From assembly GCF_011075055.1 (NCBI RefSeq), contig NC_058154.1:5133501-5197500 (forward strand): a DNA stretch of 64,000 nt. The letters run 5' to 3'. Below are positions 5,329 through 54,929 of the stretch, in pieces. This DNA comes from Mangifera indica (Eukaryota; Streptophyta; Magnoliopsida; Sapindales; Anacardiaceae). How positions within the stretch are numbered: position 1 is the stretch's first letter; each line of letters begins with the position of its first letter. The notes beneath the pieces were generated by a model that searched no databases, was not told the origin of the DNA, and worked only from the letters and a program-made list of their open reading frames with translations. The position numbers were made by a program, and so were the translations under genes.

Positions 5329-5638
5329 GGTGATTTATTATCTACAATTTATAGATAAAATGATTAATTAATTTTATTTTAATTTATTAATGTACATTTT
5401 AATTATGGATTTAATTAATTAAAATATTTCCACTATTTTTCTGAAGTTAATAGCCTTCACTATTGTACTCAGAAAGTTTTGATGAACTTTCTAATGACAG
5501 AGATCCTATCACATTAATTCCCTTATTTTTAAATTAATCACCAAAAGCCCATTATCTCAAATTAGATGTTTTTCGAACAAATCATGTGATATTAAATGTG
5601 ACTCTCAATATCAATAGGATAAACACTACATATCTCAT

Positions 5639-8824: not shown

Positions 8825-11696
8825 GACATAAAATTTGATGAGACCAATTAATTAAAACCATCTATTTAAATATTAAGTCTACGATTAAATTAGTATCTTT
8901 CAATATGATGCCCTAATTAAGCCCTTGTTCATTGAAACTTTGTTCATAAAAGCGAAGGGTATAGTTCTACTAGGTGGAAAATTAGGAGATGTTCATATTG
9001 GGTTCGACTAAACTAGTGTACTTTGTTTGTTCGCCAATGTAAAGGTGTAGTATACTAGAGGCATGAGTAAGGAATACATTTGTTGATGCACAATGATATG
9101 TAGTATCCATCTTATTGATATCGAGAGTCACATTTAAGGCTACATGATTTGTTGGGCAAAAACCTAAGTTAAGATCATAGGTTTTAAGTGATTAATTTAA
9201 AATTTACCTATTCGATTATTCAAACTTGTTCATTAGAACAAAAGAGAGAATTAATGCAACGAGGTGTTAGTCCATTAGAAAGTTCATCGAAACTTTTCAA
9301 GTACAATAGTAAAAGCTATTGGCTTAAGAAAAATAGTGAGAGCATGTTAATTAATTAAATCCATAATTTAAAAGAATATTAATTATGAATTAAATTACTA
9401 ATTATCTTGATCTATAAATTGTAGATCAAATTATCACCATGTCAAACCTAATGTATTAGTCAATTCTCGAAAAAGAAAATAAGCTCATTAGAAGCAACTT
9501 TTCTAATTAAAATAGAAATTCTTGGATTATTCTTCATCAAAAAACAGGTTTGTACATCTTTGAAAGGTTGTTTCCTTGTCAACTTGGTCTCGATGCCACC
9601 TATGAGGAAAAAGATAATTTTAATGACTCTATGGAAGTTTAATGCATTATGCTAACTTCTATGTCACTTGAGCTTCAAAAACAATATGAGGAATGGATGT
9701 TCCATCCATACTTTCACACCTTTAAGAGTTATATACTATTCATACGAAGGTTGAATGATATAAAGTGTCAAGTGTATTGTTTGATTGCAAACTATCTGAG
9801 GGAGGACAAGTTAGCACTCATGTGGTTAAGATAGGTTATATTGAGCAGTTGGCAAGCTTGAGCTTCATCATGGACAATGAGTTTGCCATTGACCTAATGT
9901 TGAAATCCCTTTCTAAATATAGGCTAATTTCATCATAAACTTTAACCTAAACAAAAAGGAGAAAACCATTGAGGAATTGTTTTATATGCTCAGACAAACT
10001 GAACAAGTGGTATGAAATGTAGCTTGAACTAAGGTGCTTTTTGTTGAAGCCCATGCAATAAGATCCAAGGCTAAGGGTAAAGGCAAAGCCCAAGCCCAAA
10101 ACAAATAAGCAACTAGATACTACTACTAAGCTAACAGGTGGTGTAGGAAAAGGAAAAGTTGTTTACTTTTATTGTGGCAAAAGTGGTCACTAGAAAAGAC
10201 ATTGCAAAACCTTTCTAGAAAAAAAAAAAAAAAAAAGAAGGCAGCTGAAGCCCTAATTAAAAACCTGATGAGACATAAAATTTGATAAGACTAATTAATT
10301 AAAACCCTTCTATTTAAATATTAAGTCTACGATTAAATTAGTATCTTTTAATATGATGCCTTAATTAAGCCCTCGTTCATTGAAACCTTGTTCAAAAAAG
10401 CGAAGGGTATAGTTCTACTAGGTGGAAAATTAGAAGATGTTTATATTGGGTTCAACTTAACTAGTGTACTTTGCTTATTCACCAATGTAAAAGGATAGTA
10501 CACTAGAGGCATGAGTAGGGAATACATTTGTTGATGCATGGTGATATGTAGTATCTACCCTATTGATATCGAGAGTCACATTTACGACTATATGATTTGT
10601 TGGCAAAAACCTAAGTTAAGATCATAGGTTTTTAATGATTAATTTGAAATTTACCTATTCGATTATTCAAACTTGTTCACTAAAACAAAGAGGAGAATTA
10701 ATGCAACGGGGTGTCAGTCCATTAGAAAGTTCATCGAAACTTTTCAAGTACAATAGTAAAAGCTTTTGGCTTAAGGAAAATAGTGAGAGCATGTTGATTA
10801 ATTAAATCCATAATTTAAATGAATATTAATTATGAATTAAATTACTAATTATCCTGATTTATAAATTGTAGATCAAATTATCACAATGTCAAACCCAATG
10901 TATCAATCAATTCTCGAAAAAGAAAATAAGCTTAGTAGAAGCAACTTTGCTAATTGGTATAGAAATTTTTGGATTATTCTTCATCAGAAAACAGGTTTGT
11001 ACATCCTTGAAAGGTCGTTGCCTTTTCAGCTTGGTCTCGATTCCCCCTATGAAGAAAAAGAAAATTTTAATAAGTATCTTGATGACTCTATGGAAGTTTA
11101 GTGTCTGGTGCTAACTTCTATGTCACATGAGCTTCAAAAACAACAAGAGGAAATAAATGTTCCATCCATACTTTTACACCTTTAAGAGTTATATACCATT
11201 CATGCGAAGGTTGAATGATATAAAGTGTCAAGTGCATTGTTTGATTGCAAACTTTCTGAGGGAGGACAAGGTAGCCCTCATGTGGTTAAGATGGGCTATA
11301 TTGAGCAGTTAGCAAACTTGAGTTTCATCATAGACAATGAGCTTACCATTGACCTAATGTTGAAATCCCCTTCTAAACAATGGGCTGATTTTATCATAAA
11401 CTTTAACCTAAACAAAAAGGATAAAACCATTGAGAAATTGTTGTATATACTCAGACAAGCTAAACAAGTGGTATGAAAGATAGCTTTAACTAAGGTGCAT
11501 TTTGTTAAAGCCCATGCATTTAGATCCAAGGCTAAGCCCAAGCCCAAAGCAAAGAAGCAACCAGATACTACTACTAAGCTAACAGGTGGTATAGGAAAAG
11601 GAAAGATTGTTTGTTTTTATTATGGCAAAATTGGTCACTAGATGAGGCATTGCAAAACCTTCCTAGAAAACAAGAAGAAAAAGACAGCTGAAGCCT
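8825..11696 (+). repeat. Tandem duplication of copia leader plus gag (2 x about 1.44 kb)
   Basis: Copy 1 (8825-10253) and copy 2 (10272-11696) are direct repeats. Both begin GACATAAAATTTGAT, and the offset is constant: 1447 at the unit start (8825/10272), 1447 at the gag start codon (9439/10886), 1448 just before the zinc knuckle. Both end at CAGCTGAAGCC. About 18 bases of filler (10254-10271) join them. Most of the length is near-identical, with scattered substitutions, a poly-A run in copy 1 (about 10219-10236) and a short in-frame gag deletion in copy 1. Confidence 0.9.
9439..10253 (+). pseudogene. Copia B gag, copy 1 (upstream duplicate)
   Basis: Starts at the ATG 9439 (MSNLMY, then a stop where copy 2 has Gln) with the same KEN.L.RSNF pattern as the gags of A and of copy 2. 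A recognisable region at 9649-9834 contains LTSMSLELQKQYEE. The zinc knuckle near 10160-10205 reads YFYCGKSGH, stop, KRHC: the first Cys is Tyr, the second is kept, and the Trp codon is TAG. It ends abruptly in an A-rich stretch and filler, with no protease behind it, so it is a gag-only duplicate. Frameshifts and stops make it non-coding. Confidence 0.8.
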
Positions 11697-11700
11697 CTAC
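10886..11700 (+). pseudogene. Copia B gag, copy 2 (joined to pol)
   Basis: Start 10886 (MSNPMYQSILEKENK) is open to 11101. A second open piece at 11225-11476 covers the middle of gag (ALFDCKLSEGGQGSPHVVK). The zinc knuckle near 11608-11655 reads CFYYGKIGH, stop, MRHC: the first Cys is kept, the second is Tyr, and Trp is TAG as in copy 1. Unlike copy 1 it continues into protease and integrase sequence, so this is the gag in its original position relative to pol. It is broken by stops and at least one frameshift. Confidence 0.8.
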
Positions 11701-14268
11701 TTTAGATATGTTTGTCATTGAGATAAACTATTCTCCTTGTCTCATCCTAGGTTGTTGACACAAGATATGATACTCATATTTGTTCTGATATGTAAGAACT
11801 GTTGCATAATAGATTGCTTGCCAAATGAGAAGTTGACCTATGAGTTAGAAATGAAACACGTGTTGTTACATTAACCGCAGGAATTTATTATCTTAGGTTA
11901 CCTACTGCCTTGTTTTAGAATTAAATACATGTTATTATATTCCATCTATTTCTAGAAATTTAATTTCTATGTCAATTTTAGATAGGGATGAATATTCATT
12001 TTTTATTACTAGTCATACTATAATTATTAGCTTTGATAATATTCTTTATGAAATGGTTGATTTGCATAATGGTTTGTACATTCTAAAACTAGATAATGGA
12101 ATTCTCAATGTGCAAAATAATAAACGTTTGAAAACTAATGAACTTAATACCACATATCAATTACATTGTAGGCTAGGCCATATAAGATTGAAACGAATAT
12201 CAAGACTTCTTCTTGCAATCATTTAACTTCTAATCTTATGATGAATATTAATCATGCTTATTGGGTAAGATGACCAAAACACCTTTCACTAGACACAGTG
12301 AAAATCTGACTGAACTGTTAGAGATCATTCACAGTAATGTGTGTGGGTTCATGATAGTGCATACTAGATATAGGAAAACCTACTTTGTCACATTTACTAA
12401 TCACATTAGTAGATATGGCTATGTTTTTTTTATTGAAACATAAGTTTGAATGCTTTGATAAATTTAAAGAATTCAATAATGAGGTAGAGAAACAGCTTTG
12501 GAAATAAATTAAAATTTTTTGTAGTGACCATGGAGGTGAATACTTAAGTGCTAAATTCAGAGGATACCTAAACTTTTAACTTACTCTTCATGGTAAATCA
12601 TAACATAATGGTGTATCTAAATGGAGAAATAAAACCTTGATGGAAATGGTTAGGTCCATGATTTATTTTATCGATCTATCCATGTCTTTTTGGGGATATG
12701 CTATAGAAACTATTTCCTATATACTAAACCATGTCCTATCTAAATCTGTGGATAAAATTCCATATGAGTTGTCGATTGGGTGAAAGCCCAATCTAAAATA
12801 CTTATGGATTTGGAGCTGTGAAGCTCATGTCAAAAAATTGCCTTTAAAAAGTGTTTCTTTGTGGAGTACCCAAAGAAAACTGAAGGATACTGCTTCTACA
12901 CTTGAAAAAGTGAAAAGTCTTTGTTGTTTATACCAACATGTTCCTTGAGAAAGAATTTATTCTCAAAAAGACCAACAGGAGGAAAGTGGAACTTGATAAA
13001 GTTCTTGTACCACAAGATATTACAAATGTTAGATAAGACAATGTATGATCACAAATGATTGATCATAAGGAAGTTCTTCAACCTCAAAGAAAACAACCTC
13101 AAAGCACATAAGAGCTATGTAGATGTATATGAGTACCTTACAAGTTAGAAATATTTGGATTTCTTATGACTCAACATGACGACATATCAGTCATCTTTGA
13201 TGAAGAACCTAAGAAATACAATAATTTTTCTTGAGTCCAAATTCCAATAAATGGTTGAATGCCATGAAATCCAAAATAGGCTCCATATACCAGAACCAAG
13301 CCTGGACTTTAGTGGATACACCTAAAGGAGTAAAACCCATAGGGTGCAAATAGGTATTCAAAAATAAAACTGACATGAAAGATAATATGCATATCTTTAA
13401 AGCATGACTGGTTGCCAAAAGTTTCACCCAAAAACATGACATTGACTATGATGAAACCTTTTTGCTAATCGCTATGCTTACATATATTAGGATTATGCTT
13501 GCTATTGCAACATACCGTGATTGTGAAATCTTTTAGATAGATGTCAAAACTGTCTTTCTGAATGGTAACCTTGTAGAGGACGTCTATATGGCATAACGCG
13601 ATGATTTCGTTCTTACTAGACAAGCTAATAAAGTATGCAAGCTGTAAAAGTCTATTTATGGGTTTAAGTAGGCTTCTAAAAGCTGGAATATTCATTTTGA
13701 TGAAGTTTTACAAGAGTTCAGTTTTATAAAAAAAAAAACTATGTATAAGAATGTTAATGGGAGCATGACTGCATTTATAGTATTGTATGTCGATGAAATA
13801 TTTATACTAAACTTGTAATCAGTAAAGGCTTGGTTATCCAAGTGTTTCTCTGTGAAAGACTTAGAAGAAACATGCTACATTCTTGGGATTAAATTTTACC
13901 AAGATAAAAAGTGTAGATTGCTAACCTAAGTCAAAACACTTATATAGTTAAGGTATTGACAAGATTTTTTAAGAGGGGATCTAAGAAAGGATTTCTACCT
14001 ATGTCCTATGGTATACAACTTTTGAAAGAGATGTGTCCATCTTCACAATTTAAGATAGACAAGATGAGTAGGATTCTATATACCACAGTTATAAGATTAA
14101 TCATATATATTATACTATGAACAAGACTTGATATCTTATACATCTTGAGCATTTACAGTAGATATCAATCCGATCCAGGTGAAAAACACTAAATAGTTGT
14201 TAAGAACATCCTAAAGTATCTGAGAAGAACTAAGGATATGTTCTTAGTTTATGGTGTAATTTTCCATT
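11701..14268 (+). pseudogene. Copia B pol remnant
   Basis: Continues from gag copy 2. The GAG-pre-integrase segment (11969-12226) contains YQLHCRLGHI. The integrase core starts at 12261 (GKMTKTPF...LLEIIHSNVCG), where the family's first catalytic Asp is Asn. Later integrase is in pieces to about 12900. Reverse transcriptase spans about 13240-13980, with the VAKSFTQKHDIDYDETF and DVKTVFLNGNL blocks. The catalytic box at about 13785-13796 reads YVDE instead of YVDD. The remnant ends at KYLRRTKDMFLVYG (about 14200-14268), before RNase H, and is replaced by leader-like sequence of copia C. Many stops; inactive. Confidence 0.8.
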
Positions 14269-17700: not shown

Positions 17701-18835
17701 TGCTGACTAGGCGTGGGCACTTGAAATTATGAGAGCAGAATTCGAAAATTAAATCTGAATATCCAGATTAGCTGAGATCTTCCACAAAAGTCAAGATTTG
17801 CTTTTTAGAAAAGGGATAATTATTAGCTGGAAAAGGAGATTAATTGACCTAGATAAGGAAGAACATTTTTGGGGAAGGATATATATGAAAATATATATTT
17901 TTCCTTTCTTTTTGGGGAAGATTTATTTGGCTGGATTGAAGAATGATTATTGCATTTTATTTTCGGTTTTCAGTGGGGGGACAAGATATATATAAATATA
18001 CTTTTATTTTGCTGAGGGGGGATTATGATTGTAATTGGAGGATTAAAGAGCTGAATATGGTTTATAGAGGCTGAATATTTTCTCTTGGTTGAAGGGATCT
18101 GAAACCATGAACTACAAGTTGTGAGATTTTTATTCTTTAATGCATCTTTTTAATTATTCAAGTATTAATTATTATTCTGAATTATTTTTTATGATTGTGT
18201 TGGTTGATTACTAAGGTGTGCGATTAGTTTATTAATTAATATAATCTACTACTAGTTTAGATGCTGAATCCGTAATTGTTCAATCCATCTAATCGAAGTG
18301 GCAACTAAGATTTATCGTTTGCTGCGTCAAGAACTGTAAATCCTAGGAAAATAGTTAAATTGATTAAATGCAACGTCGTACGCTTGTGTTATCTTACTTC
18401 ATTGGTCTTTCTAATTCTTAATGCTATTGTTTAAATAAATTCGATATCGTATCTGAATTATTAATCAATAAGGGTTAATTGGAATACATGTTTTTGGTTA
18501 ACTAATCATAAGGAAGGACAAACAATTAATATCGCAATGAATATTTGAATAATTAATTTGATATTTTTGGCTGTCGATGATCAATCGTAGTTCCAATGGT
18601 GGATGTGACCGTAGACCAAAGTTTGTCAAATTGATTAATTCCTTTCAGATTTTTATTTATTTATTTTTAATTATAAATCGCATTCAATTCAAAATCCCCT
18701 TTATTCCTTATTTGATTTATTTGTGACGACGTACTAATTGGAACTTTTTGAGGGAACAATCCCTACTTTCTTTTACTACATTTTTATTATAGGAATTTAA
18801 GATTTTAATTTAAGTGTCAACGACAGAACGTACCA
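17701..18835 (+). mobile_element. Athila-like gypsy element, 5' LTR
   Basis: The LTR end is ACGTACCA at 18835, followed five bases later by a tRNA-Asp-type primer site. From about 18160 it aligns closely with 19836-20525 (shared TGATTGTGTTGGTTGATT, ATCTACTACTA and GTGACGACGTACTAATTGG), which proves an LTR pair. The start is uncertain; it may extend left to about 17090. A TATA-like box is at 17987. Confidence 0.75.
17987..18000 (+). promoter_or_regulatory. TATA-like box in Athila-like LTR
   Basis: A TATATATAAATA run about 840 bp upstream of the LTR end, in the position expected for an LTR promoter. Assigned by sequence pattern only. Confidence 0.4.
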
Positions 18836-18840
18836 AATTT

Positions 18841-19766: not shown

Positions 19767-19835
19767 ATTCAAGCAAACTACCATCACAGAATTCAAGCAC
19801 ACTGCCATCACAGAATTCAAGCACAAAATTCAAGT
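19767..19835 (+). repeat. 24 bp tandem repeat at gag C-terminus
   Basis: Units start AATTCAAGCA and contain CCATCACAG, about 2.7 copies. They translate as repeated NSS(K/T)LPSQ, an in-frame eight-residue repeat at the C-terminal end of gag. Confidence 0.8.
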
Positions 19836-20525
19836 ATTGATTATCATCTTTCTGAATTATTTTTCATGATTGTGTTGGTTGATTGTTAAGATGCGTAATT
19901 AGTTTATTAATTAATATAATCTACTACTAATTTAGGTGCTAAATCCATAATTGTTCAATCTATCTAATCGAAGTGGCAATTAGGATTTATCATTTGCTGT
20001 ATCAGGAACTGTAAATCCTAGGAAAATAATCAACTAGATAAAATGCAACATTGTATGCTTGTGTTGTCTTGCTTCGTTGGTTTTTCTAATTCTTAATGCT
20101 ATTGTTTAATTAAATTCGAAATCGTATCCGTATTATTAATCAATAAGAGTTAATTGGAATACATGTTTTTAGTTAACTAATCATAAGGAAGGACAGGTAA
20201 TTAATACCGCAACGAATATTTGAATAATTAATTTGATATTTTTGGTTGTCGATGATCAATCGTAGTTCCAATGGTAGATGTGACCGTATACTAAGGTTTG
20301 TTAAATTGATTAATTTCTTTCAGATTACTTCACCTAATTTTTATTTATTTATTTTTAATTATAAATCGCATTCAATTCAAAATTCCCTCTTATTTCCTTA
20401 TTTGTTTTATTTGTGACGACGTACTAATTGGAACTCTTCGAGGGAACGATCCCTATTTTCCCTTACTACATTTTTGTTGCAAGAATTTAGGATTTTAATT
20501 TGGGTGTCGACGATAGCACGTACCA
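19836..20525 (+). mobile_element. Athila-like gypsy element, 3' LTR (5'-truncated)
   Basis: Direct repeat of 18160-18835 with the same end (ACGTACCA at 20525). The first part of the LTR is missing: gag is joined directly to its middle at about 19836. The sequence after 20525 is LINE-like, whereas the sequence left of the 5' LTR is copia C, so the element lacks a matching pair of flanks and a target-site duplication cannot be read. Confidence 0.8.
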
Positions 20526-21410
20526 ACACTATAAAGTTTCCAATGTCTATTTGCCCACTACACAACTAGCAAACGTTCCATCAAACTTTAAACTTTACAT
20601 GGCAACCAAATCACCCACCCCACTTTCTGCCGGTCACCCTATGAACTTCTCTATACCATCTAACTCTAACCCTACTTCCTGACCACATGCTACCCCAACC
20701 TTTAAGCTAGTCATCACCCAACCACCCCTCACACCTATCATGGGCTCCACCAAGCTATCCACCTAAACACCTACCGTACTTGCCACCCAACCTACTACCA
20801 CAACCACTACTTAACCACCCAAGCTTCCAACTCAAGGCCCTATCTTAGGTCGATAGGATCTGAACTTTAAGCTTAAAATCTTGATTCACTATAGAACAAA
20901 TAGATTGTACAATTGAAGGTGATAAACCGAGTTGGTTATAGAAGATGATGTTATAAATGAGAATACTTCTCAATAGACCCTGTGTATTGTGGGTTTTCTC
21001 CTGGGATACATAATGTTACAATTTGAGCATGGAAATCATATAGATTAGAGCATGTTATGTCCTTTGATGGATTTATTATATTTAGATTCAAGGAGGAAGA
21101 AAAAGTTCATCGAGTGCTTGAGGAAGGCTTGTGGATGTTTGGAGGAAAACACATAATTTTGTAGCAATGATATGCCTACATTTCATTTGACATGAGTAGA
21201 ATTTCTAAGGTGCCAATATAAGTTTGTTTACATGGGGTACCCCTTCCTCTATGGACTCAAAAGGGGTTAAACATGGTTTCGAGTAGATCTGAGTGATGAC
21301 TCTCTTATGACAGACAAACTTATGAATATACACATATTTCTTATGCACGTGTATATATTGAACTATATGTTAAGAAGATGCCTTTGTAAAATTTCAAATT
21401 ACAATATTGC
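20526..21410 (+). pseudogene. LINE (L1-type) ORF1, 5' half, DUF4283-like
   Basis: A Pro/Thr-rich region (20530-20840) is followed by a DUF4283-like block at about 21060-21290: FDGFIIFRFKEEEKVHRVLEEG, LWMFGGK and ISKVPI.VCLHGVPLPLW, the pattern of plant L1 ORF1 proteins. Stops are present. The reading is cut at 21410 by a minus-strand gypsy insertion and resumes at 28487 with the ORF1 zinc knuckle. ORF1 proteins bind element RNA. The true start is not identifiable. Confidence 0.75.
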
Positions 21411-22690
21411 TGCAACATCCCTCCTTAGAATTACTACCCTCCAGAGGAGAAATGCTAAAAATTAATATTCGGAGCATCTATTATTATTATTTTTTAAACT
21501 ACTTTAAACTAAACTCATTTCTAAAAGTGTTTAGAAATTATCCTAAGAAAACTGAAAATCTGAAGCGAATAAAAAATGTATATATCCTATATGAAACCTC
21601 ATCTGAAAGCATCTAAAACATGAAATAATCATATACAACTGTACGACCATCTCAAGAAGGTCAAAAGTCAACAAGACATGTAACTATATGTATGTAACAT
21701 AAACCAGAGACAACTTACTCCAACTAGATCTATCTTCGCTGACTTGACCATGCCTCGTAACTACCACGATCACTTGTACCTGCAATCATGAAAGAAAAAG
21801 AAGTGAGAGATAAAAACACTCAATAAAGGGAAAAAATTAAGTAAACTATCTCCTTTTCTGTGCTAACTCACTTTCGGGACTCAATCTCACATCATAACCT
21901 CCATAAGGAATCGAGGGAATAATCTAGTTTATTCTTTACTATTTTGGTCATACTTTATCCCACCTGATATCTATTTGATACTTTCTAGAAGCTAACTATA
22001 GGGATTTGACACTTTTCTAAGCTTAAGCTCTCTTCTTTTCTCTCACTGCACCATTTCTGAATCTGAATTATGTTCTACTCTGGGCATGATCTACTGTAAG
22101 CGAACCTTACTGTAGGTCTATATCCTATTATAGATGTGTCCTACTATAGATGTGCCTTACTGTAAGTGGTGTAGTGTAAAGTGCCCCTTATAGTTCATAG
22201 CATGCATGCGTGCATTATATCTTACTAATCTTGGTTCCATCTAAAACTATCCATAACTAACCAAACCATACTTTTGGGACGACCCATAAATCTTGAGCCC
22301 TAAATTCCTTTACTTGTTTTTTTTTCTTTACTTCTTCTTTTCTTTTTCTCTCGTTTCTTTCTTTTCTCCCTTTTCTTTTTCTTTCTTCCCAAAACTATAA
22401 ACACTATTCATGAGGCTGTTTACTTAGTAGAGCAGTTTTTTTCTTTATGCATTCTAACAGTCCAAATGGTCTCTAATTCATACAAACTATAAATCATTAA
22501 AAAGAGGATTCAAAGACCTTTCCAAAAAGCTATAACAACACTCATGATTCATCAAATAAAGTAGTCAAAACATAGGATGAAATCAGTGACAAAAAATTGT
22601 ATTCACTATTCATTTGATAAGATAATCTTTTTGTTCATGTAATTTAATAGTTCAAACGGTCTCTAATTTATATAAGCTATATATCATTGA
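21411..22690 (-). mobile_element. Gypsy G1, 3' LTR, truncated
   Basis: Matches the LTR at 24766-28486 from its terminus (TGCAACATCCC at 21411 versus TGTAATATCCC at 24766). It covers the polypyrimidine tract (about 22318-22390) and about 1.5 units of the 190 bp array, then stops at 22690 where RT sequence begins. Confidence 0.85.
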
Positions 22691-23690
22691 ACTTTATTGA
22701 GGTATATCATTCTCTACCACTTTTACCTGGTGATAACCAGATCTCAAATCTATCTTGGAGACGACTACGAATTCCTTCAACTGATCAAATAAGTCATTAA
22801 TCCTGGGTAACGTGTACTTGTTGTTAACTTTAACTTTATTTAGCCCTCTGTAATCAATGCACATCCTCATGGACCCGTTTTTCTTTTTCACAAATAGGAT
22901 AGGAGCTCCCAAAGGAGAATGACTTAGTCTGATAAAACCATGATCTAGTAACTCCTAGAGCTACTTCTTCAGTTGTTATAACTCGACAAAGGCTATTCGA
23001 TAGGGTGCTTTTGAAATAGGTACTCTGCCTGGTACTAGCTCTATACTAAACTTAACTTCTTGTTTAGGAGCTAGTCCTAGTTGCTCACTCAGAAACACAT
23101 CTGGAAACTTTTGTACCACTAGCGTCTCATCATTAGTTAAGCTTGACTCAACCTTGCTCATTATATGAGCCAAATATCCTATACACCCCTTTTTCAACAT
23201 TTTACTGGCTTTCAACATACTGATCATCAAACTCTAGTATGACCCTCATCAAACTCGAATTGATCTCTAGAGTCCAGGGTAAATCTCACTTTCTTCTTTT
23301 TACAATTAATCTCAACTATGTATTTCCCTAAAAAGTCCATCCCTAAAATCATGTCAAAATTTGGCATTTCAAACATAATCAAGTCCATTAGTAACTGTCG
23401 ACCCTGAATCATAATACTATGTCCTAGTAGTATCATCTCACTAATGACTGACCCCTTATCAGGCAACTCGATCATAATCCTCTAGACTATTCTGATAGGT
23501 TTTAACTTTAACTTCTCAAGCAAACTCTTGGCTACAAAATAATGAGTAGCCCCATAATCAACTAAAACATAAATAGGAGTATCAAGATAGAGAATCTGAC
23601 CCGTGACTACTAATGAGTTAACCTCTGTTGGACCCTGGGTGATCGTATAAACTCTAGTTGTGGCCCCTCCTATAAGTTTCTATTGCTCTA
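22691..23690 (-). pseudogene. Gypsy G1 protease and partial RT
   Basis: Protease-like segment at about 23600-23227: a DYGATHYF motif (normally D-S-G) and, in 23475-23227, FDMILGMDFL, the usual gypsy protease end. RT N-terminal part: 23230-22976 (PDVF near QLGLAP, then VELVPGRVPISKAPYR) and 22912-22694 ([26 protein letters not shown] and [11 protein letters not shown], including the first catalytic Asp). RT ends at DIPQ (about 22694), before the YVDD box, where the LTR fragment is joined. Stops and frameshifts separate the open pieces. Confidence 0.85.
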
Positions 23691-24740
23691 CTATTACTAG
23701 GGCATTTGCACAAAACGGACGATATGTCTAGGTTGATGACATCTGAAACAAACTGCTTGGCCTATTAGATACTCTCTTCTATGTTAATTCCTACATTTCT
23801 GGCAAGCTAGTATTTCAAGTCTTCTCTATTTCTTTCCATTCTTCCAGTTCTTTTTCATGCCTTTGAATTAGAGAAGTCATTTACCCATTTTGTCCCAGTC
23901 TGGAAAAAGGCCTCTTTGTGCTAAAACTGAACCACTGCTCATCGAGGGAACTGGCATGGCAATAAGGGTGTAACTTTTTTCCTTGTGGTCTAACCGAACC
24001 TCCTTCTCACAAAAACCTACCCTTAAAGCTCTATCGAGGGCCTCTGTATAAGTCTTAGGTGGCTGTACCCCCTCATAACATCTTAGGCTATCTCTGGATC
24101 TTACCGGTACATAAACTTTTGCATACACCTTATCTCTGTACTAGCTATGTCAGGGGCATACTGGGACAACTTATTAAACTTCATAGAATATTCCTTTATT
24201 GAATTTGTCCCTAGCACTAGATTAATAAACTTTTCGACCCTAATACAAGTAATATTGGCGCCTCTGTACTCTACCTTAAATCGAAGCCTGAACTTGGACC
24301 AAGTCATCTCTGAGACATTGATCGTCTCTCGGACTAAGTTCTATCATATTCTTGTCCTGACTTGAAAAGATAGGTGGCATATCTCACTCTTTCTTGGTCG
24401 GTCATATCAAATAGGGTCATTGCACTTTCTGCTTATTCTAACCGCTCTTCAACTGCTATTAGGCCCTTTGCACCATTAAATTTTTTAGGCTGGTGCATAC
24501 TAGGGAGATTGAAAATAGGATGCAACTAAGTCCTCACTGGGGCTGCTATAGATGTTGAAGTAACCTCCATCATATCATGTCCCCGGGTTGGCGTTGTATG
24601 TGCACTGAGTCCTCCTCTGGGGTACTTAGGGAGTTGCTCTTTCATATTGGCTCCTCTGAAAGGGATTTATTGGTGTTCGGCTTATAGGTTCTTTGTTACT
24701 TGGATTACTCCATTTTGTTTTAGAAAACATCTTTAGGTTC
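23691..24740 (-). pseudogene. Gypsy G1 gag remnant
   Basis: Retrotransposon gag domain: 24307-24101 has W-S-K-F-R and a SIKEYSMKFNKLSQYAP block, and 24128-23877 has PKTYTEALDRALRV. A zinc-knuckle trace at about 23760-23710 reads CFRCHQPRH, with the final Cys lost. The N-terminal part near 24600-24450 is poorly preserved. Frames are broken by stops. Orientation, position after the primer site and order before protease all agree with gypsy gag. Confidence 0.8.
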
Positions 24741-24750
24741 CCAAAATTAT

Positions 24751-24762
24751 GCTCTGATACCA
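24751..24762 (-). other. Primer-binding site (tRNA-iMet type) of gypsy G1
   Basis: On the minus strand TGGTATCAGAGC, a perfect initiator-Met primer site, lies three bases downstream of the LTR end at 24766. It fixes the minus orientation. Confidence 0.9.
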
Positions 24763-25707
24763 ACTTGTAATATCCCTCCCCAGAATTACTATCCTCCAAA
24801 GGAGAAATATTACGAATTAATATCTAGAACGTCTATTTTTTTTTTTAAACCACTCGAAACTAAACTCATTACTAAAAGTGTTTAGAAATTATTCTAAGAA
24901 AACTGAAAATTTGGAAGCAAACAAAAGATATATATATCCTGTATGAAAACTCATCTGAAAGCATTTGAAAACATAGAGTAACCATATACAACTGTACAAC
25001 CATCTCAAAAAGGCAAAAGTCAACAAGACATGCAACTATATGCATGTAACATAAACCAGAGATAACTTGCTCTAATCGGATCTATATTCACTGTCCTAAC
25101 TCTGCCTCGCAGCTACAGTGATCACCTGTACCTGTAATCATGAAAGTAAAGGAAGTGAGAGATAAGAACACCCAGTAAGGGGAAAAAATTAAGTAAACTA
25201 TCTCATTTCTTATTCTAACGTACTCTCAGAACTCAATCTCACATCATAACCTCCATAAGGAATCGGAGGGATAATCTAGCTCATTCTTTACTATTTGGGC
25301 AATACTTTGTCCCATCTAATGTCCATTTGATACTTTCTAGAAACTGACTACAGAGATTTGACACTTTTCTAAGCTCAAACTCTCTTCTTTTCTCTCACTA
25401 TAACATTTCTGAATTTGAATTATGTTTTACTCTAAGTATGTTTTACTGTGAGTGGACCTTACTGCGAGTTTATGTCCTATTATGGATGTGCCCTCATAGT
25501 TCATAGCATGCATGCGTGCGTTATATCTTACTAATCTTGCTTCCATCTAAAATAATCTATAACCCACCAAGCCATACTCTTGGGATGACCCGTGAATCTT
25601 GAGCCTCAAATTCCTTTTCTTGCTTTTTTTTCTTTTCTTTTCTTTTTCTCTCCTTTCTTTCCTTTCTTTCTTTTTCTCCTCATTTTCTTTCTTTCTTTCT
25701 TTCCAAA

Positions 25708-27803
25708 ATTGTAAACACTGTTCATGGGACTATTTACTTGGTAGAGTAGTTTTTTTCTTCATGTAATCTAAAAGTCCAAATAATCTCTAATTCAAACAAA
25801 CTATATATCATTGAAAAGAGGATTCAAATAGCTTTCCAACAATCTGTACCAACACTCATGATTCATTAAATAAGGTAGTCAAAACATAGGACAAATTCAA
25901 TGACAAAAACTTATATTCACTATTCATTTAGTAAGACAGTTTTTTTGTTCATGCACTATAGTAGTCCAAATGGTCTCTAATACATACAAGCTATATATCA
26001 TTGCAACATGGATTCAAAGAGCTTTCTAAAAAACTATAATAGCACCCACGATTCATCAGATAAGGTAGTCAAAATGTGGGATGAAATAAGTGGCAAAAAA
26101 TTGTATTTACTATTTATTTAGTAAGGCAGTCTTTTTTTTCATGCCATTTAATAGTCCAAACGGTCTCTAATTCAAACAAAATATATATCATTGAAAAGAG
26201 GATTCAAAGGGCTTCCTCAAAGCTATACCAACACTCATGATTCATCAAATAAGATAGTTAGAACATAGGACAAATTCAATGACAAAAAACTATATTCACT
26301 ATTTATTTAGTAAGACGGTCTTTTTGTTCATGCATTTTAACAATCCAAACGGTCTATAATTCATACAAACTATATATAATTGAAACACAGATTCAACAAA
26401 ATTTCCAAAAAGCTATAATAGCACCCATAATTCATTAGATAAGATAGTCAAAATATAGGATGAAATTAGTAACAAAAAACTATATTCACTATTTATTTAG
26501 TAATGCAGTCTTTTTATTCATGCCATTTAATAGTCCAAACGATCTCTAATTCATACAATCTATATATCATTGAAATGTGGATTCAAGGAGCTTTCCAAAA
26601 AGCTATAATAGCACTTATGATTCATCAAATAAGGTAATCAAAATGTGGGATGAAATTAGTAGCAAAAAACTATATTCATGGTTTATTTGGTAAGACAGTC
26701 TTTTTATTCATGCAATTTAACAGTTCAAACGATCTCTAATTCATAAAAACTATATATCAATAAAAGAGGATTCAAAGATTTTTCCAACTAGCTATAACAG
26801 CACTCATGATTCAACACATAATGCAGTCAAAACATAAGATGAAATCAGTGACAAAAAATTGTATTCACTATTCAATTAGTAAGACAGTCTTTTGTTCAAG
26901 TAATTTAATAGTCCAAACGGTCTCTAATTCATACAAGCTATATATCATTAAAAGATGCTTCAAAGATATTTACAAAATGTTATAATAGCACACATGATTC
27001 ATCAGATAAGATAATCAAAACATTGAATGAAATCAGTGGCAAAAAACTATATTAACTGTTTATTTGGTAAGATAGTCTTTTTGTTCATGCAATTTAATAA
27101 TCCAAACGATCTCTAATTTATACAAACTATATATCATTGAAAAGAAAATTCAAAGAATTTTCCAACTTGCTAAAATAGCATGCATGATTCATTAGATAAG
27201 GCAGCCAAAACATAGGATGAATTCAATGGCAAAAAACTATATTCACGGTTTATTTGGTAAGGCAATCCTTTTGTTCACACAATTTAACAGTCCAAACGAT
27301 CTCTAATTCATACAAACTATATATCACTGAAAGTAAATTCAAAGAGTTTTCTAACTAGCTATAATAGCACTCATGATTCAACAAATAAAGTAGTCAAAAC
27401 ATAGGATAAAATCAATGACAAAAAACTATATTCACTATTCAATTAGTAAGACGGTCTTTTTCTTCATGTAATTTAACAGTTCAAACGGTCTCTAATTCAT
27501 ATAAGCTATATATCATTGAAAAGATGCTTCAAAGATATTTCCAACAAGCTATAATAGCATGCTTGATTCATCAGATAAGGCAGTCAAATTGTAGGATGAA
27601 TTCAGTGGCAAAAAACTATATTCACTATTTAATTAATAAGACAATCTTTTTGTTCATGCAATTTAACAGTCCAAACGGTCTCTACTTCATACGAACTATA
27701 TATCATTGAAAATAGGATTGAAAGAGCTTTTCAACAAGCTAAAATATCACTCATGATTCATCAGATAAGGTAGGCAAAATATAGGACGAAATTAGTGGCA
27801 AAA
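25708..27803 (+). repeat. Tandem array, 11 units of about 190 bp, inside gypsy LTR
   Basis: The landmark CTATATATCATTG recurs, with variants, at 25801, 25991, 26181, 26370, 26560, 26750, 26938, 27127, 27317, 27506 and 27696, spacing 188-190. Each unit also has a TCCAAACGGTCTCTAATTC block, a GATTCATCAGATAAGG block and a CACTATT.ATTTAGTAAG block. Two units survive in the 3' LTR (landmarks at 22487 and 22677) and three in the solo LTR at 53639-54222. No coding potential. Confidence 0.95.
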
Positions 27804-28310
27804 CGGTAAATATTATCCAACTCTTTGCCATGAACAAACTAACACACATAGATACCCTAAGTGGCAAAACAACATTTCTCAACTTCAAAATCATCATTTA
27901 TAAACTAGAGCCAAGGAACCAAAAGCATAAAACATGAAACATACCAAGAATAATACACCTTACCTTATTTCAAATCAATCTTTGCTAAATTGGCTCCCTC
28001 CTTTTTGTCTTCCTTCTTTGATCACCAAAATCACCTTAAATCAACACCAAAACACACTAAAATCTTCATATAACATGATCCAATATATATAAACATAGGA
28101 AAAGGGGAAAAGAAAGGGATCTTTTGGTTAACAAGGCTCCAAAAATGCTTCCTCTTCTTTTATTTCCTTACTTTTCTTTCAGAACCCTTCAAATCATCCA
28201 TTTTCCTTCTAAAAGCAAAGAAAAAGCATAAAGAAGGCTATTTTTTCTAGAAGAGACAAAGAAGATGATGGAAAAAGGTATAAGTTTCTTTTTTTTTTTA
28301 CTTTTCTCTT

Positions 28311-28354
28311 TATATATATATACGCATACTTTTTATATATATATATATATATAT
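28311..28354 (+). repeat. TA microsatellites in the gypsy LTR
   Basis: Two TA runs (28311-28325 and 28337-28354) near the 5' end of the minus-strand LTR. The solo LTR has its TA run (54787-54818) in the corresponding place. The ORFs across them are low-complexity and not genes. Confidence 0.85.
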
Positions 28355-28486
28355 CTTTTTTTTTTGAAATTGCTTTGTATATATATAAACACATATACAT
28401 TTGAACATATATATTTAAAACTAGAAATATCTCAAAGTAAGGGTAAAAGATATAAATGCCCCTAAAACGTACCTGAAGGTATTACA

Positions 28487-31700: not shown

Positions 31701-33714
31701 CCTTACAAATCATACCATTTCCTTACACAAAAATTATAGTTTTTGAAATCCTTATGAAATTGCTCCTTATGCAAAAATTCAAATACGCTGACAATGCACA
31801 GACATGTATTATTCATACACGATTTTACATACCTTCCAGACAACCAAATTGCATAAATTACTTGGGAAAATACCACTTTGCCCCTTGCCATAATACACAT
31901 GGGAGTTTAGCCACCCCATACGATCTTGAATCATGGTTTTCAAATGCTTGAATAATTAAAACATATTAATTACACACAAGGCAAAAAGACCAAAATACCA
32001 TTGAGCATACTTGCAGGTGCTATAACAAGCAACCTCGATTTTTCAAACGTCCTACGTTAATGCATAGTATCCAAAGGTATCAAGGTTAAACAGACTAGCC
32101 CTACTATTTTCATGACCATACTACATATGGTTTGGTGGTTTAATCACACTACTCATAGCTTGGTGATATGTCTCATTGTACACAACTTAGGACAAGTCAC
32201 AATATTGTAGCACATCATTTTCAATTTTTAACTTGAAACCACTATAGTTAGGGTTTGCGCTTTCATTCATACAGTCGAGCACACCCAAATACCTTTTGTG
32301 CCATCTTTTACATAATCTAAGACATTTATCTAATATTAATCTCATATTGCCTTCGTTGTGGCCTTAATCCATATTTACCTCTCATTCATCCCTTATAGAG
32401 GTAAATTAGTCAATTTTAAACTAATATACTCACATCGGAACTTCATATACTCTTCATGTACTTCACTTGTTTTTGTTTCCAAATTTTTCCAAAATTAAAT
32501 GGGTCTATATCCTATACACATAAAGGTGTGTTACTTCATCACACGAGCGAGTGAACCATGCACACAAGTGTGCATCTTTGGGTTTGAGTACATGACTATA
32601 TGTCCCATACTAGATAGGTGTGTGTCAATTCCTAACTCCACATTTTTGTGTCTTCAATTAACACATGAAGAAATTTTACCCAAAAGTACACAGGTGTATG
32701 TTGCAAAATTCCATAATTTCATCTTCATTTTCTTTTCTGTTTTCTAGCTACAAGCCATCACTATTGAGCACATAATCATATTAAAAACGTCCCTAAAACA
32801 ATCCTAAATCAATCACAATGTATCATACATCATAATCCTTTTAATATGGTCTTCCTTTAACCATACTCTCCATATTCAATTTTCAATTAGTTCCCACAAA
32901 ATTCATGGCAAAGTCAAGTCAATATATGCATCCATGATAACAGTGAACACAATCAACCCTTTTTCCTCAAGTTATTGCATAATCATGATGACATTTAACA
33001 AGTATTCTTCCAACTAATATAATACATAAACACAACCCATTCATAGGCTTCCATATCAACCAATCAGCACCAATTTTCGCATATAACATGTATAATCAGA
33101 TATTTAACATACAAATTAATTACTACCACACCCAATTCTCATGACACAAATTTGTATAATGATTTATCATTTCATAGTAATCAAATCATTCATAAAGGAA
33201 AAAGGAATTATTTACTTACCTTTCCTCCAACGAAACAATGGTCTTCACATGGGTTGATTAATTCCCCGAACTTTTAGCTATCTCTTTTAAATTCTAATTA
33301 TTGGGTAGGAATCATGAGCCAAACATGCCCAAGTTCTTTTTATTTTTATTAAAAACACGATACACGAGTATGTACTGTTCATACATAGGCATGTATACCT
33401 TTACCCATTAATGCCAAGTTCCGAAATTGCTGTGAAGCACATTCTTTTCTAAAATTCAAACGCGCTAACCATGCATGGGCATATACCTACTTATACACAG
33501 GTATGTATTATAAGCATACATGGAATCCACACTTCACCAATTATCAAACAATAAATAGGAAAAGATTATTTTACCCTTTCCATCAAACACACGGGCGTAT
33601 GGCCTTCCCACACAGTCGTCCAAGCTTGATTTTACACATAATATAATTCAACATAATTAATCGTACTCAAAACCAAAAGACAATAATAACCATGAACGAA
33701 TTTGAAAGTATTAC
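31701..33714 (-). mobile_element. Gypsy-type LTR remnants, at least two fragments
   Basis: 31701-32040 resembles 33428-33680, and 32060-33670 resembles 35140-36760, so fragments of one LTR family are stacked here. Fragment ends of the TGTTACA type occur at about 32040 (GGTGCTATAACA) and 33714 (GTATTACA). The family is marked by recurring CACA-NNN-TGTG words. No gene is present; the ORFs 31703-31900, 31754-31951 and 32499-32747 are within the LTR. Confidence 0.6.
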
Positions 33715-34410: not shown

Positions 34411-36770
34411 TGTAATGTCTTTCTCTAAATACATACCCCTACCTAGAAAAGGTATCCAAAGAGATATGCTAACTTGAGACTTTCACAGTTAGACTCGCAT
34501 CAAAGATAATAAACATGCATCATAAATTATTCACTCCCACAATCCTTAAAAGTGTAATAAATTACATTAACCAAGATACCAGTCCTAGTGTCTAAAATCT
34601 AAAATCATAAAATAAAGTACACAAATATCATAGATAAACTCAAACACATAAATACGGCCCAACTTGTAAAATGATCAAAATGCCCTTATCTCAAGCTAAT
34701 CCACTGGATTCCCTGTTACTACCATGCAACTCCTTAAACTTACCTATAAAACCATAAGGGAACACAGTGAATGAAACACATTCAATAAGTAAGTGACCTC
34801 AAAATATTCAATAAATGTATATGTATCACAATTAATCTTAATCTCATATAAGTCCTTTGATCAATTTCTCTATGGTATCACAAATGTTTCTCTAGCATCC
34901 CTGATGCCCATAGAATCATCTTGGTACCAAGCACCTAATCCTCAGTGGCATTGTCATCCTTGATGACTAATGCCAAACAATGTACGTCAGTATCTTGGAC
35001 ACCTAGTAAAAGCACGAGACATCCTAGATATCAATCATAAGGTGCACTAAATACAAATATCACAAGGGAACAAGACCCAAGCTTTTCCCAAAATCATATA
35101 AACATCCTAGATATTCAAAAGCCTAGCATCAGTGCATGCATGAGCATCCCAAATGCTAAGGTGCACTATGTTAGTGCATAGTCATCCAAAAATATTAAGG
35201 CCATACAGACTAGCCCTATTACATTCCTGACCATACTACACACAACTTGGTGGTATAATTACACTACACATAACTCAATGATATGTCATATTACACACAA
35301 TTTAGTGACAAGTCATAAAATCATAGCATATCATTTCTAGTTTTTTACTTGAAACTGCTCTAATCAAGGTTTGTGCCTTTATCCACATAATTGACAAATT
35401 TCCTTTGTGCCATCTTTCACATAGTCTAATACATTTATTCAATATTAACCTCATATTGCCTTCGTTATGACCTTAATCCATATTTTACAATCATTCATTC
35501 CTTATAGGGATAAATTAGTCATTTCTAAACTCATATAGTCACATAATAACTTCATATACTCTTTATGTACCTCACCTGTCTTTATTTCCAAATTTTCCCA
35601 AAAGTACACAAATATGTATCCTATACACACGAAGGTGTGTAACTTCATCATACAGACATGCAAACCATGCACATGCGTGTGTATCTTTAGAGTAAGGCAC
35701 ATGACTATGTGCCTCATACCAAATGGAGATGTGTCCATTACCAATTCAACATCCCGTGGTTGTGTCAATGACACATGGGTGTGTGTCACAAAATTTTAGA
35801 ATTTCATCTTTGTTCTTTTCTTCATTTTCTAGCTACATGCCATCATTACAAAACATATAATCATACCAAAAATGTCTTTAACACAATCCTAAATCAATAA
35901 CAGTGTCTCATACATCATAATCCTCTAGTTATGGTCTTTATTTAACCATACTTTCCATATTCAGTTTACAATTATTTTCCACAAAATCCATGGCAAAGTC
36001 AATATATGTAACCACGATAATAGCGAACACAATCAACCCTCTTTCCTCAAGCTAATGCATAATCATGAAGACTTCTAACATGTATTCTGCTAACCAACAT
36101 AATACATAAACACATCACATTCATAGGCTTCCATATCAACCAATCAATACCAATTTCGAAAGTAACACATATAATTAAATGTTTAACATACAAATTAATT
36201 ACTACCACACCCAATTCGCATCATACTAATTTGTTTAATAAATTATCATTCCACAATAACCAAATCATTCATAGGGGAAAAAGGAATCGTTTACTTACCT
36301 TTCCTCTGGAAAATCAATAGTCCTCATGTGGCTTGATTAATCCCTCAAACTCTCCTCCCTGCGTCCCAAGCCTCAAAATCTTCATCTTAACTTTCTATTC
36401 TCTTTTTAAAATTTTGAGAATTGGGTAGTAATCACGAGCCAAACGGGTCTAAGTTTTTTTATTTTTATTTTTTAAAATCATGATACACAGGCATGCACTG
36501 TTCTCACACCTGTATGTATGTCATTACCCATTAATGAAACTTGCTAAAATCCCCCCAAAATGTATCCTTATCCAAAATTTAAATGCACTAACCATGCATG
36601 GGCATAATGCATAAGTGTGTACCTACTTATACACAAGCATGTATCATAGGTGTGCATGTCATCCACACTTCACCAATTATCAAACATCAAATGGGAAAAA
36701 CTGTTTTGCCCTTGCCATTAAACATATGAATGTGTGGCCTTCTTACATAGCCATGTAAGCCTACAAGACA
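34411..36770 (-). mobile_element. Second gypsy-type element (G2), 5' LTR
   Basis: On the plus strand it opens TGTAATGTCTTTC at 34411, next to a minus-strand primer site. It contains the long segment also present at 32060-33670 (for example ACAGACTAGCCCTA and CTTTGTGCCATCTTTCACATA). The far end is unclear; similarity to the left copy fades at about 36770. Almost no internal region is left beyond the primer site. ORFs 35502-35789 and 35614-35799 are in the LTR. Confidence 0.65.
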
Positions 36771-46162: not shown

Positions 46163-47209
46163 ATGGAGGTTCAATCTATCTTCGGCCTTACACTGACCAT
46201 TCTCTTCTTATCTGGTAAACTATTCAGCAATCACTCATATTTCTTTATATTTCTTTAATTTTTCGGTTAATGTTATGTTGTGTATGTATAATTATTTAAG
46301 GTGAAAATCTTATCAATACGGCGAATTAGTAGATGTTAATATTTTGTAATGCTCCAAAAGGTAGTTATAAATTGTGACTGATTTCAATAATAGTTTAACT
46401 ATTTTTACAGTTGAAAAAAAAGTATTATCATCTTAAAAAAACTTATGGGTTTTTGGCTTACAACTTTATTTTATCTGAATTAATCTCAAAAATACTACTT
46501 ATATTTGTCTAATGAATTGATGAATAAAGGAGTTCACTCAGCAACCTTCCAAATCAAAAACAATTGCGGCTTTACAATCTGGCCAGGAACCCTAACTGGG
46601 GCAGGCAGTCCGCAGTTGTCTTCAACCGGTTTTGAGTTAGCCTCCAGAGCATCATTAACCCTAAATGTCTCACCTCCGTGGTCAGGCCGCGTCTGGGCTC
46701 GAACCAATTGCACCACTAATGCCTCTGGAAAGTTCACCTGCGCCACTGCAGATTGCGGATCTGGTGCGGTAGCCTGCAATGGCGCTGGCGCCATCCCACC
46801 TGCTTCACTCATTGAGTTCACACTGGCAGAAAATGGCGGACAAGATTTTTACGATGTTAGTCTTGTTGATGGCTTCAACTTGCCTCTTTCAGTTACACCA
46901 CAAGGCGGAACCGGCGGCTGTTCGTCGACAAGCTGTCTGGGTAATGTGAACTCGGTTTGCCCATCGGACTTGGCGGTGAAAGGCCCCGATGGGAGTGTTA
47001 TAGCATGCAAGAGCGCTTGTTTAGCATTCAATCAACCGCAATATTGCTGCACTGGTGCTTTTGGTTCGCCGGATACATGTCCACCGACTACATTTTCTGA
47101 AATTTTCAAGAAGAAGTGCCCACAGGCTTATAGCTATGCTTATGATGATAAGACTAGCACGTTTACTTGTAATGGAAGAGCTAATTATGCTATCGAGTTC
47201 TGCCCTTAA
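46163..47209 (+). CDS. Thaumatin-like protein (PR-5 family), two exons
   Basis: Coding exons 46163-46214 and 46530-47209 give 243 residues. Exon 1 ([17 protein letters not shown], then the first base of a Gly codon) supplies most of the signal peptide; cleavage is likely after residue 21. The intron 46215-46529 has GT and AG ends and phase 1. The start is chosen because it is the only in-frame Met giving a secretory signal; the Met at 46505 is inside the intron. The mature part begins TFQIKNNC and has the thaumatin signature at residues 84-100 ([16 protein letters not shown]), an acidic-cleft block (E118, D123, D131) and 16 cysteines (30, 78, 88, 93, 100, 148, 153, 161, 177, 181, 190, 191, 201, 214, 231, 242), the full set for eight disulfides. 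Length is normal for the family. Such proteins are secreted to the apoplast, often stress-induced, some antifungal. This member's role is not known from sequence. No stops, frameshifts or missing cysteines. Confidence 0.95.
46215..46529 (+). other. Intron 1 of the thaumatin-like gene
   Basis: 315 bp, AT-rich, starting GTAAAC and ending AATAAAG before GAGTTCAC. It splits a Gly codon after the first base. Joining the exons reads through in frame from the signal peptide into the mature protein. Not supported by any transcript here. Confidence 0.85.
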
Positions 47210-52679: not shown

Positions 52680-53638
52680 TGTAACATCCCTCCTTAGAAG
52701 TACTACCCACCGAAGGAGAAATATTACGAATTAATATTCGGAGTGTCTATTTTTTTCTTTTTTAAAAATACTTTAAAATAAACGCATCATTAAAAGTGTT
52801 TAGGAAGTATTCCAAGAAAACTGAAAATCTGGAAGCGAATAAAAGATGTATATACTTATATGAAGACTCATCTAAAAGTATCTGAAAACAGGGAGCAATC
52901 ATATGTAACTGTACCATAATCTCAAAAAGTCAAAAGTCGATAAGAACATGCCACTGTATGCATGTAATATAAACCAGAGATAACCTGCTCTAGCCGGATC
53001 TACCTATGTTGACCTGACCTTGCCTCGTAGCTACCTTGATCACTTGTACCTGCAATCAGAAAAGAAAAGGGAATGAGTGATAAGAACACTCAGTAAGGGG
53101 AAAGAATCAAGTAAACTATCTTTTTTCTTGTTCTAACTCACTTTTGGGACTCAACCTCACATCCTAACCTCTATAAGAGATTGAGGGGGTAATTTAGTTG
53201 ACTCTTTACTATTTGGGTCATACTTTGTCCCATCTGGTGTCTATTTAATACTTTCTGGAAGCTAACTATAGGGATTTGACACTTTTCTAAGCTCAAACTC
53301 TTTTTCTTTCACTACACTATTTCTGAATCTGAATTGAGCTCTACTGCGAACGGACTCTACTGTGGGTCTATGTCCTACTATGGACGTGCCCTACTGTGGG
53401 CGGTGTAGTGTAAAGTGCCCCCTCATAGTTTATAGCATGCATGCGGTCTTATATCTTACTAATTTTGCTTCCATTTAAATTTATTCATAACTCACCAAAC
53501 ATTACTCTTGGGACGACCCCTAAATCTTGAGTCCCAACCTTTTCTTACTTTTCTTTCTTTTCTCTTTCTCTTCTTTTTTTTTTCCTTTCCTTTCCTTTCT
53601 TTCTTTTTCCTTTCTTTCTTTTTCCTTTCCAAACTATG

Positions 53639-54222
53639 AAATACTGTTCACAGCCCTGTTCATTTTGACAGGGCAGCCTTATTTTTCATACAATTTCAAA
53701 GTCCAAACGGTTCCTAATTCATACAAGCTATATATTTTTGAAAAGAGGATTCAAATAGCTTTCTAACAAGCTATAATAGCACTCATAATTCATTCAATCA
53801 GGCAGTCAAAACAGCAGATAAAGTCAGTGGCAAAAACTGCCTCCTCTGTTTATTTGATAAAGCAGTCCTTGTGGTTTATGCAATATTTAACAATCCAAAT
53901 GATCCCCAATTCATACAAGCTATATATCACTGAAAATATAATTCAAAGAGCTTTCCAACCAGATATAATAGCACTCATAATTCCATAGATAAGGCAGTCA
54001 AAACGTGAGATAAACTCAGTGACAAAACTGCCTCCTTTGTTTATTTAGTAAAACAGTCCTTTTGGTTTATACAATATTTAATAGTAAAAATGATCTCTAA
54101 TTCATACAAGCTATATATTATTGGAAAGAGGATTCAAAGATCTTTCCAACGAGATATAACAGCACTCATAATTCATCAGATAAGGCAGCCAAAACATGGG
54201 ACGAACTCAGTGGCAAAAACTG
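53639..54222 (+). repeat. Three-unit version of the 190 bp array
   Basis: Landmarks (CATACAAGCTATATAT) at 53728, 53920 and 54111 are 191-192 bases apart. Flanking sequence on both sides matches the flanks of the 11-unit array at 25708-27803 (for example GTAAATATTATGCAAC after the last unit). Confidence 0.92.
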
Positions 54223-54783
54223 TAAATATTATGCAACTTTCTGCCATGAACAAAATCACATACATAGACATTCCAAATGGCAAAACAATATTCCTCAACA
54301 TCAAAATCAACATTTATAACATAGATCTAAGGAACCAAAAGCCTAAAACATGTCACATATCAAGGACGATATCCCTTACCTTGTTTCAAGCCAAATCTTT
54401 GCAAATTGGCTTCCTCTTCTTTGTTTTGCTTCCTTTATCACCAAGACAACTTTAAATCAATACCAAAACACACTAACATATTCACATAACATGCATATAA
54501 ACATAGATGAAAGGGAAAGGAAGGAGATCTTTGGTTACCAAAGCTTCCCAAGTGCTTTCTTTTCTTTTCTTTTCTTTCTTCTCTTCCAACCTCTTTCAAA
54601 TCCTTCTTTTTTCTTCAAGAAAGCAAAGAAAAAGCTTCAAGAATGGTGGCTGCTGGAATATGGACGGAAATGATGGAAAAATGGGATGAGATGCCTTTTT
54701 TTGACTTTACTCTCCCTTTATCTAAGCTTTATCTCCTTTTTTTCTCTTTGTCTTTTTCCTTTTTTTTTTTTTTCTTTTTCTTT

Positions 54784-54786
<3 letters not shown>

Positions 54787-54818
<32 letters not shown>
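54787..54818 (+). repeat. TA microsatellite in the solo LTR
   Basis: Sixteen TA units, preceded by a long T/C tract, in the same place as the TA runs of LTR G1. Confidence 0.95.
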
Positions 54819-54822
<4 letters not shown>

Positions 54823-54929
54823 CACATATACATGTAAAACAAATATATGTACTTAAAATGGGAAATATCTCTAAATAAGGTCAAAAGACATAAATACCCC
54901 TAGAACATACCTGGGGGTATTACACTTAA

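Follow-up and report, generated by a model that had tools for sequence, protein, structure and literature searches.

Tandem arrays carried in the LTRs or untranslated regions of gypsy retrotransposons are already established as precursors of satellite DNA in plants, and the mango array described here is a further case of that kind. In hop, the LTR of the Ty3/gypsy element SaazCRM1 includes the centromeric SaazCEN, a repeat with a satellite annotation (PMC12371157). In Lathyrus sativus, arrays in the 3' untranslated region of Ogre elements gave rise to nine satellites, and the mechanism that generates such arrays was called undetermined in that work (PMC7004042). LTR-derived satellites have also been tabulated for potato, maize and animals, with the LTR (in maize, the LTR and the UTR) listed as the source of Sobo, the potato St3-58 group and maize CRM1TR/CRM4TR (PMC9659126). 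In addition, the rice element Retrosat2 was described by its authors as having LTRs longer than 3 kb, with U3 at positions 1-244 and a short tandem repeat within an extended R region of some 2 kb (PMC3485330). Our literature search, of which only a small part named Mangifera, found no paper on the mango array.

Self-comparison of the window, namely the whole 64-kb stretch of Mangifera indica DNA that was analysed (contig NC_058154.1), revealed three copies of one LTR family, termed A, B and C, all of which read along the minus strand (Table 1). A and B share 81% identity over 1289 columns in the blastn alignment, and C is 74-76% identical to B. LTRs B and C both start with TGTAATACC on the minus strand, and TGGTATCAGAGC is found within three bases of the end of B. 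The outer end of A is TGCAACATCCC, with ATTGC just outside position 21411, which agrees in four of five bases with GTTGC outside B at 28486. Paired TG...CA ends together with short target duplications, a hallmark of Ty3/gypsy LTR retrotransposons, are thus found in this family, B being complete, A truncated and C solo. As C is flanked by CTTAA on either side (five of five bases), it is a solo LTR.

Table 1. Coordinates of the LTR copies, coding remnants and repeat arrays in the window
Feature	Position	Strand	Description
LTR copy A	21411..22691	-	most simply the 3' LTR, truncated, of the element to which B belongs; target-site-side LTR end and 1.46 array units kept
Decayed internal region	22692..24765	-	primer site, gag, protease and RT start; remainder of pol missing
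RVT_1	22694-22954	-	Pfam
RVP_2	23482-23679 and 23227-23481	-	Pfam, two stretches
Retrotrans_gag	24101-24340	-	Pfam
LTR copy B, most simply a 5' LTR, 3721 bp	24766..28486	-	ends TGTAATA and TATTACA; adjoins primer site
LTR copy C, solo LTR, 2245 bp	52680..54924	-	target duplication CTTAA/CTTAA
Array remnant in A, 1.46 units	22415..22691	-	unit HMM
Array in B, 11 units of ~190 bp	25729..27804	-	TRF, unit HMM, alignment
Array in C, 3 units	53655..54221	-	unit HMM, TRF

The stretch between A and B retains the remnants of a retrotransposon. A primer-binding-site-like sequence, AGTTGGTATCAGAGCATAA, adjoins B on the minus strand and is presumably of the initiator-methionine tRNA (iMet) type; it is followed by gag, protease and RT, in the order expected for Ty3/gypsy elements after a 5' LTR. 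Of 17 open stretches in total (nine on the minus strand), seven were searched singly against Pfam and four of them matched at E ≤0.01. The portion of pol for integrase, which follows RNase H in the gypsy order, is missing from the element, and the retained RT stretch starts right beside the array of A, whose match breaks off at 22691 inside the second unit. The RT fragment may be akin to the Tekay/Del chromovirus lineage, whose integrase chromodomain would lie in a region missing from the element. Given the primer site, the domain order and the near-matching target duplication, A and B are most simply read as the 3' and 5' LTRs of one decayed Ty3/gypsy element. The simplest account of the missing parts is a deletion that removed the greater part of pol and, in the 3' LTR A, its beginning and most of its array. 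The LTR ends and target duplications, the primer site and the matches to gag, protease and RT bear out the assignment to gypsy made in an earlier, sequence-only reading of this DNA. Additions to that reading are copy A, the minus-strand orientation, the solo status of C and the remains of gag-pol that separate A from B.

The array is composed of units of about 190 bp. TRF detected a 190-bp array of 10.9 copies at 25729-27803 and a 191-bp array of 2.6 copies at 53713-54218. An HMM built from the 11 units of B (cut-off E ≤1e-3) matched 16 times in the window. B accounts for 11 of these matches, C for three and A for two, of which one is whole (A1) and the other only 87 bp long (A2p). All 16 matches lie inside the three LTR copies, and no unit was found outside the LTRs in the 64-kb window. 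A degenerate 29-mer of the unit, allowing up to three mismatches, matched 15 times in the window versus zero times in each of 100 shuffles. A 27-base unit pattern gave no exact match in collections of prokaryote and virus contigs, a result that has no bearing on plants. By eye, the array edges and the unit junctions carry a similar short stretch, seen as AAACTATAAACACT at the left edge in A and as AAAACTGTAAATATT at the right edge in C. A conserved RNA structure of the unit was also considered and rejected, as just one of the 21 pairs predicted over 15 units shows a two-sided change and the structure has an energy of -1.92 kcal/mol.

The array measures 2076 bp in B and 567 bp in C, and the difference of 1509 bp corresponds to 7.94 units of 190 bp. 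The flanks to the left and right of the array are 963 and 682 bp long in B, and 975 and 703 bp long in C, with B-C identities of 80% and 73%, respectively. The sequence-only reading had proposed that one LTR family occurs with 11 and with three units, that the array flanks correspond in both copies, and that LTR length differs by whole tandem units, about eight in number. TRF and the unit HMM agree on the two arrays, the flanks are similar in length as well as in sequence, and self-comparison of the B and C LTRs identifies the surplus as tandem units rather than an unrelated insertion, so that all three proposals hold.

In a tree of 15 units, no branch reached the 95 and 80 mark of the tool; the values are 93/96 for C2-C3, 94/94 for B07-B10 and 82/85 for B06-B09. 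The partial unit A2p was left out of this tree and of the nearest-unit table, and was included in a second tree, in which the support of C2-C3 is 96/96. The split of the C units from A1 and the B units is weak, at 61/75 without A2p and 72/87 with it. The nearest unit of A1 and of each of the 11 B units lies within A/B, and C2 and C3 are mutually nearest; C1 is by a hair nearest to B01 (0.232), and about as close to C2 (43 differences over 182 positions). This tendency of the C units and the A/B units to group apart suggests that the two sets may have been amplified separately.

Within B, growth of the array neighbour by neighbour was rejected, as adjacent units show no excess similarity over distant units (permutation p 0.68 at offset 1). 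Offsets 2 and 3 are slightly enriched, with uncorrected p values of 0.049 and 0.067 among seven offsets tested. The blocks B06-B07 and B09-B10, which lie 567 bp apart and match at 87% each, hint at a multi-unit duplication. Moreover, A2p is 90% identical to B10 compared to 83% to B02, a difference of 4 versus 10 sites that is not significant in a sign test (p 0.18). If the arrays in A and B matched, A2p would not be expected to lie nearer to B10 than to B02.

The two LTRs of one element provide a clock for the age of the array, based on a single element and on its left flank only. The A-B left flank has a K2P distance of 0.178 over 953 columns. Between A (21411-22414) and B (24766-25728), transitions far exceed transversions (123 versus 23), as expected if methylated cytosines decay. 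The units A1 and B01 differ by a K2P of 0.159, which suggests that array and flank evolve at like rates. Among themselves, the B units have a mean K2P of 0.222 (55 pairs, range 0.141-0.310) and the C units of 0.260 (three pairs). The distance between B and C units is 0.310 over 33 pairs, above the within-B mean, and the B-C flanks are 0.241 (left) and 0.334 (right) apart.

The divergence of five of the 55 B unit pairs falls below that of the A-B flank, in no case significantly, and two pairs are significantly more diverged after Bonferroni correction, in a comparison whose pairs share units and hence are not independent. At a unit length of ~190 bp, only pairs with at most 14 differences (7.4%, about half the flank value) would score as younger in this test, and the lowest pair has 24 differences over 188 positions. 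Since none of the B pairs is significantly younger than the insertion, the B array probably existed already when the element integrated, and decayed afterwards. Given like rates of array and flank, the B units seem to have differed by a few percent on average at insertion, with most of their present divergence being decay since then.

We lean, somewhat more than evenly, towards an old Ty3/gypsy LTR with a ~190-bp array whose unit number was altered during retrotransposition, each integrated copy then freezing its array. The first step would have been the duplication of a block with similar short sequences on either side (AAAACTRTAAAYA-like, judged by eye at the two array edges), and the short stretch common to the array edges and the unit junctions is a plausible seat of this duplication. 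The unit number might then shift by whole units in reverse transcription, if the template slips or if strands are transferred out of register between array copies. After integration, the array of each copy would be frozen and subsequently decay by point mutation. This account draws on two complete arrays, and we infer its reverse-transcription step. A more specific form of it, which we think distinctly unlikely, places the array in the R region of an LTR with a short U3: the first-strand transfer from 5' R to 3' R could then misregister in every cycle, and the LTR would be its own length mutator, with a number of units that shifts at each retrotransposition and is equal in both LTRs of a new copy. 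The array occupies positions 683-2758 of the 3721-bp B and 704-1270 of the 2245-bp C, and if U3 were as short as in Retrosat2 (1-244), the array of B would, by conjecture, fall in R. TATA-like matches are located in LTR B at 100-171, 396, 2109 and 3551 and in LTR C at 107-131; AATAAA occurs nine times in B (eight within the array) and three times in C (two within the array). Their use for placing U3 and R is limited, as the TATA-like runs at 100-171 and 107-131 are all TA-rich simple repeats and AATAAA recurs inside the array.

Alternatively, the unit number might have changed after insertion, each chromosomal locus having undergone unequal crossing-over or replication slippage. Such a change would agree with the resemblance of A2p to B10, B08 and B07 rather than B02 and with the multi-unit duplication to which the block pair B06-B07 / B09-B10 points, and the young-pair test is blind to events in the first half of the life of the element at its locus. 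However, with none of the 55 B pairs significantly younger than the insertion and adjacent units not the most alike, we regard a change at the locus as somewhat unlikely. It is also conceivable, albeit unlikely, that C once had more units, which were lost when recombination between the misaligned arrays of its two LTRs formed the solo LTR. Solo LTRs arise through LTR-LTR recombination, C is one with a perfect target duplication, and C1 is about as far from C2 and C3 as from the B units; on the other hand, C2 and C3 are mutually nearest and A1 and the B units tend, weakly, to group apart from C, which favours separate amplification. The reverse direction, in which a free satellite came first and a piece of it was later captured by the LTR, has been considered as another possibility for the satellites of Lathyrus (PMC7004042). 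For the mango array it appears highly improbable, as no sign supporting it was seen in the 64-kb window, and all 16 unit matches fall within LTRs and occupy one common position there, the flanks of these copies being separated by K2P distances of 0.18-0.33. Under the favoured change of unit number during retrotransposition, the array is probably a by-product without demonstrated function; it could serve as a satellite precursor, of which the window bears no sign. The sequence-only reading saw the LTR as a nursery for satellite-like repeats whose copies could seed arrays in other places. That idea is known from other plants; within the window every unit match is in an LTR, and the B array gives no significant indication of having expanded after insertion.

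The window contains several other repeats. Two direct repeats of ~700 bp (18156-18836 and 19828-20526) are 87.7% identical, and next to the left copy comes ATTTTGGCACCATTGCCAGGG, a sequence resembling a primer binding site; the pair may represent a short plus-strand LTR element with an internal deletion. A second direct pair of ~1.6 kb (32052-33615 and 35166-36750) is 74.6% identical, with its copies 1.5 kb apart and borders without clear LTR ends. In addition, there is a near-adjacent direct duplication of 1.4 kb (8825-10252 and 10272-11695, 88.8% identical) and a large inverted repeat region in three pieces (2038-5634 and 10543-14252, 72-74% identical). The sole stop-to-stop stretch of at least 150 aa wholly inside the window, 46484-47209, belongs to the thaumatin family (Pfam PF00314). 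Among the best 120 of 3129 matches, Mangifera indica thaumatin-like protein 1b comes first, with 99% identity across 95% of the product, and a Pistacia protein follows at 81%. This single gene would place the host in Mangifera or very near to it.

The mango family thus adds a case in which the length of a gypsy LTR is set by a tandem array, together with a within-element clock (A versus B), the latter suggesting an array that was fairly uniform at insertion and has decayed since. If this is general, whether the unit number changes in reverse transcription or at the locus could be told from the counts in the two LTRs of each young element.

Like the mango array, the satellite-annotated SaazCEN lies within a gypsy LTR and has short tandem subunits, in most cases three or four of 39 bp, but SaazCRM1 belongs to the CRM lineage and is centromeric, with a 284-bp monomer and 39-bp subunits, whereas the mango LTRs carry 190-bp units in runs of three and 11 (PMC12371157). 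Likewise, Ogre/Tat elements are gypsy elements whose short tandem arrays spread with the element, some of them expanding into satellites; their arrays lie in the 3' untranslated region downstream of gag-pol, in contrast to the array in the LTR itself in mango, where the window is without an expanded array (PMC7004042). An array between pol and the 3' LTR, taken as the sign of Ogre/Tat membership, was not found, the arrays being located inside LTRs B and C. Sobo, St3-58 and CRM1TR/CRM4TR differ in that they are satellites, whereas the mango arrays are within the LTR only (PMC9659126). Retrosat2 is comparable as an LTR retrotransposon with LTRs longer than 3 kb and a tandem repeat in the LTR; its repeat, however, comprises seven copies of a 6-base motif, with no long-unit array noted in the portion of that description available, in contrast to the ~190-bp units of the mango LTR (PMC3485330).
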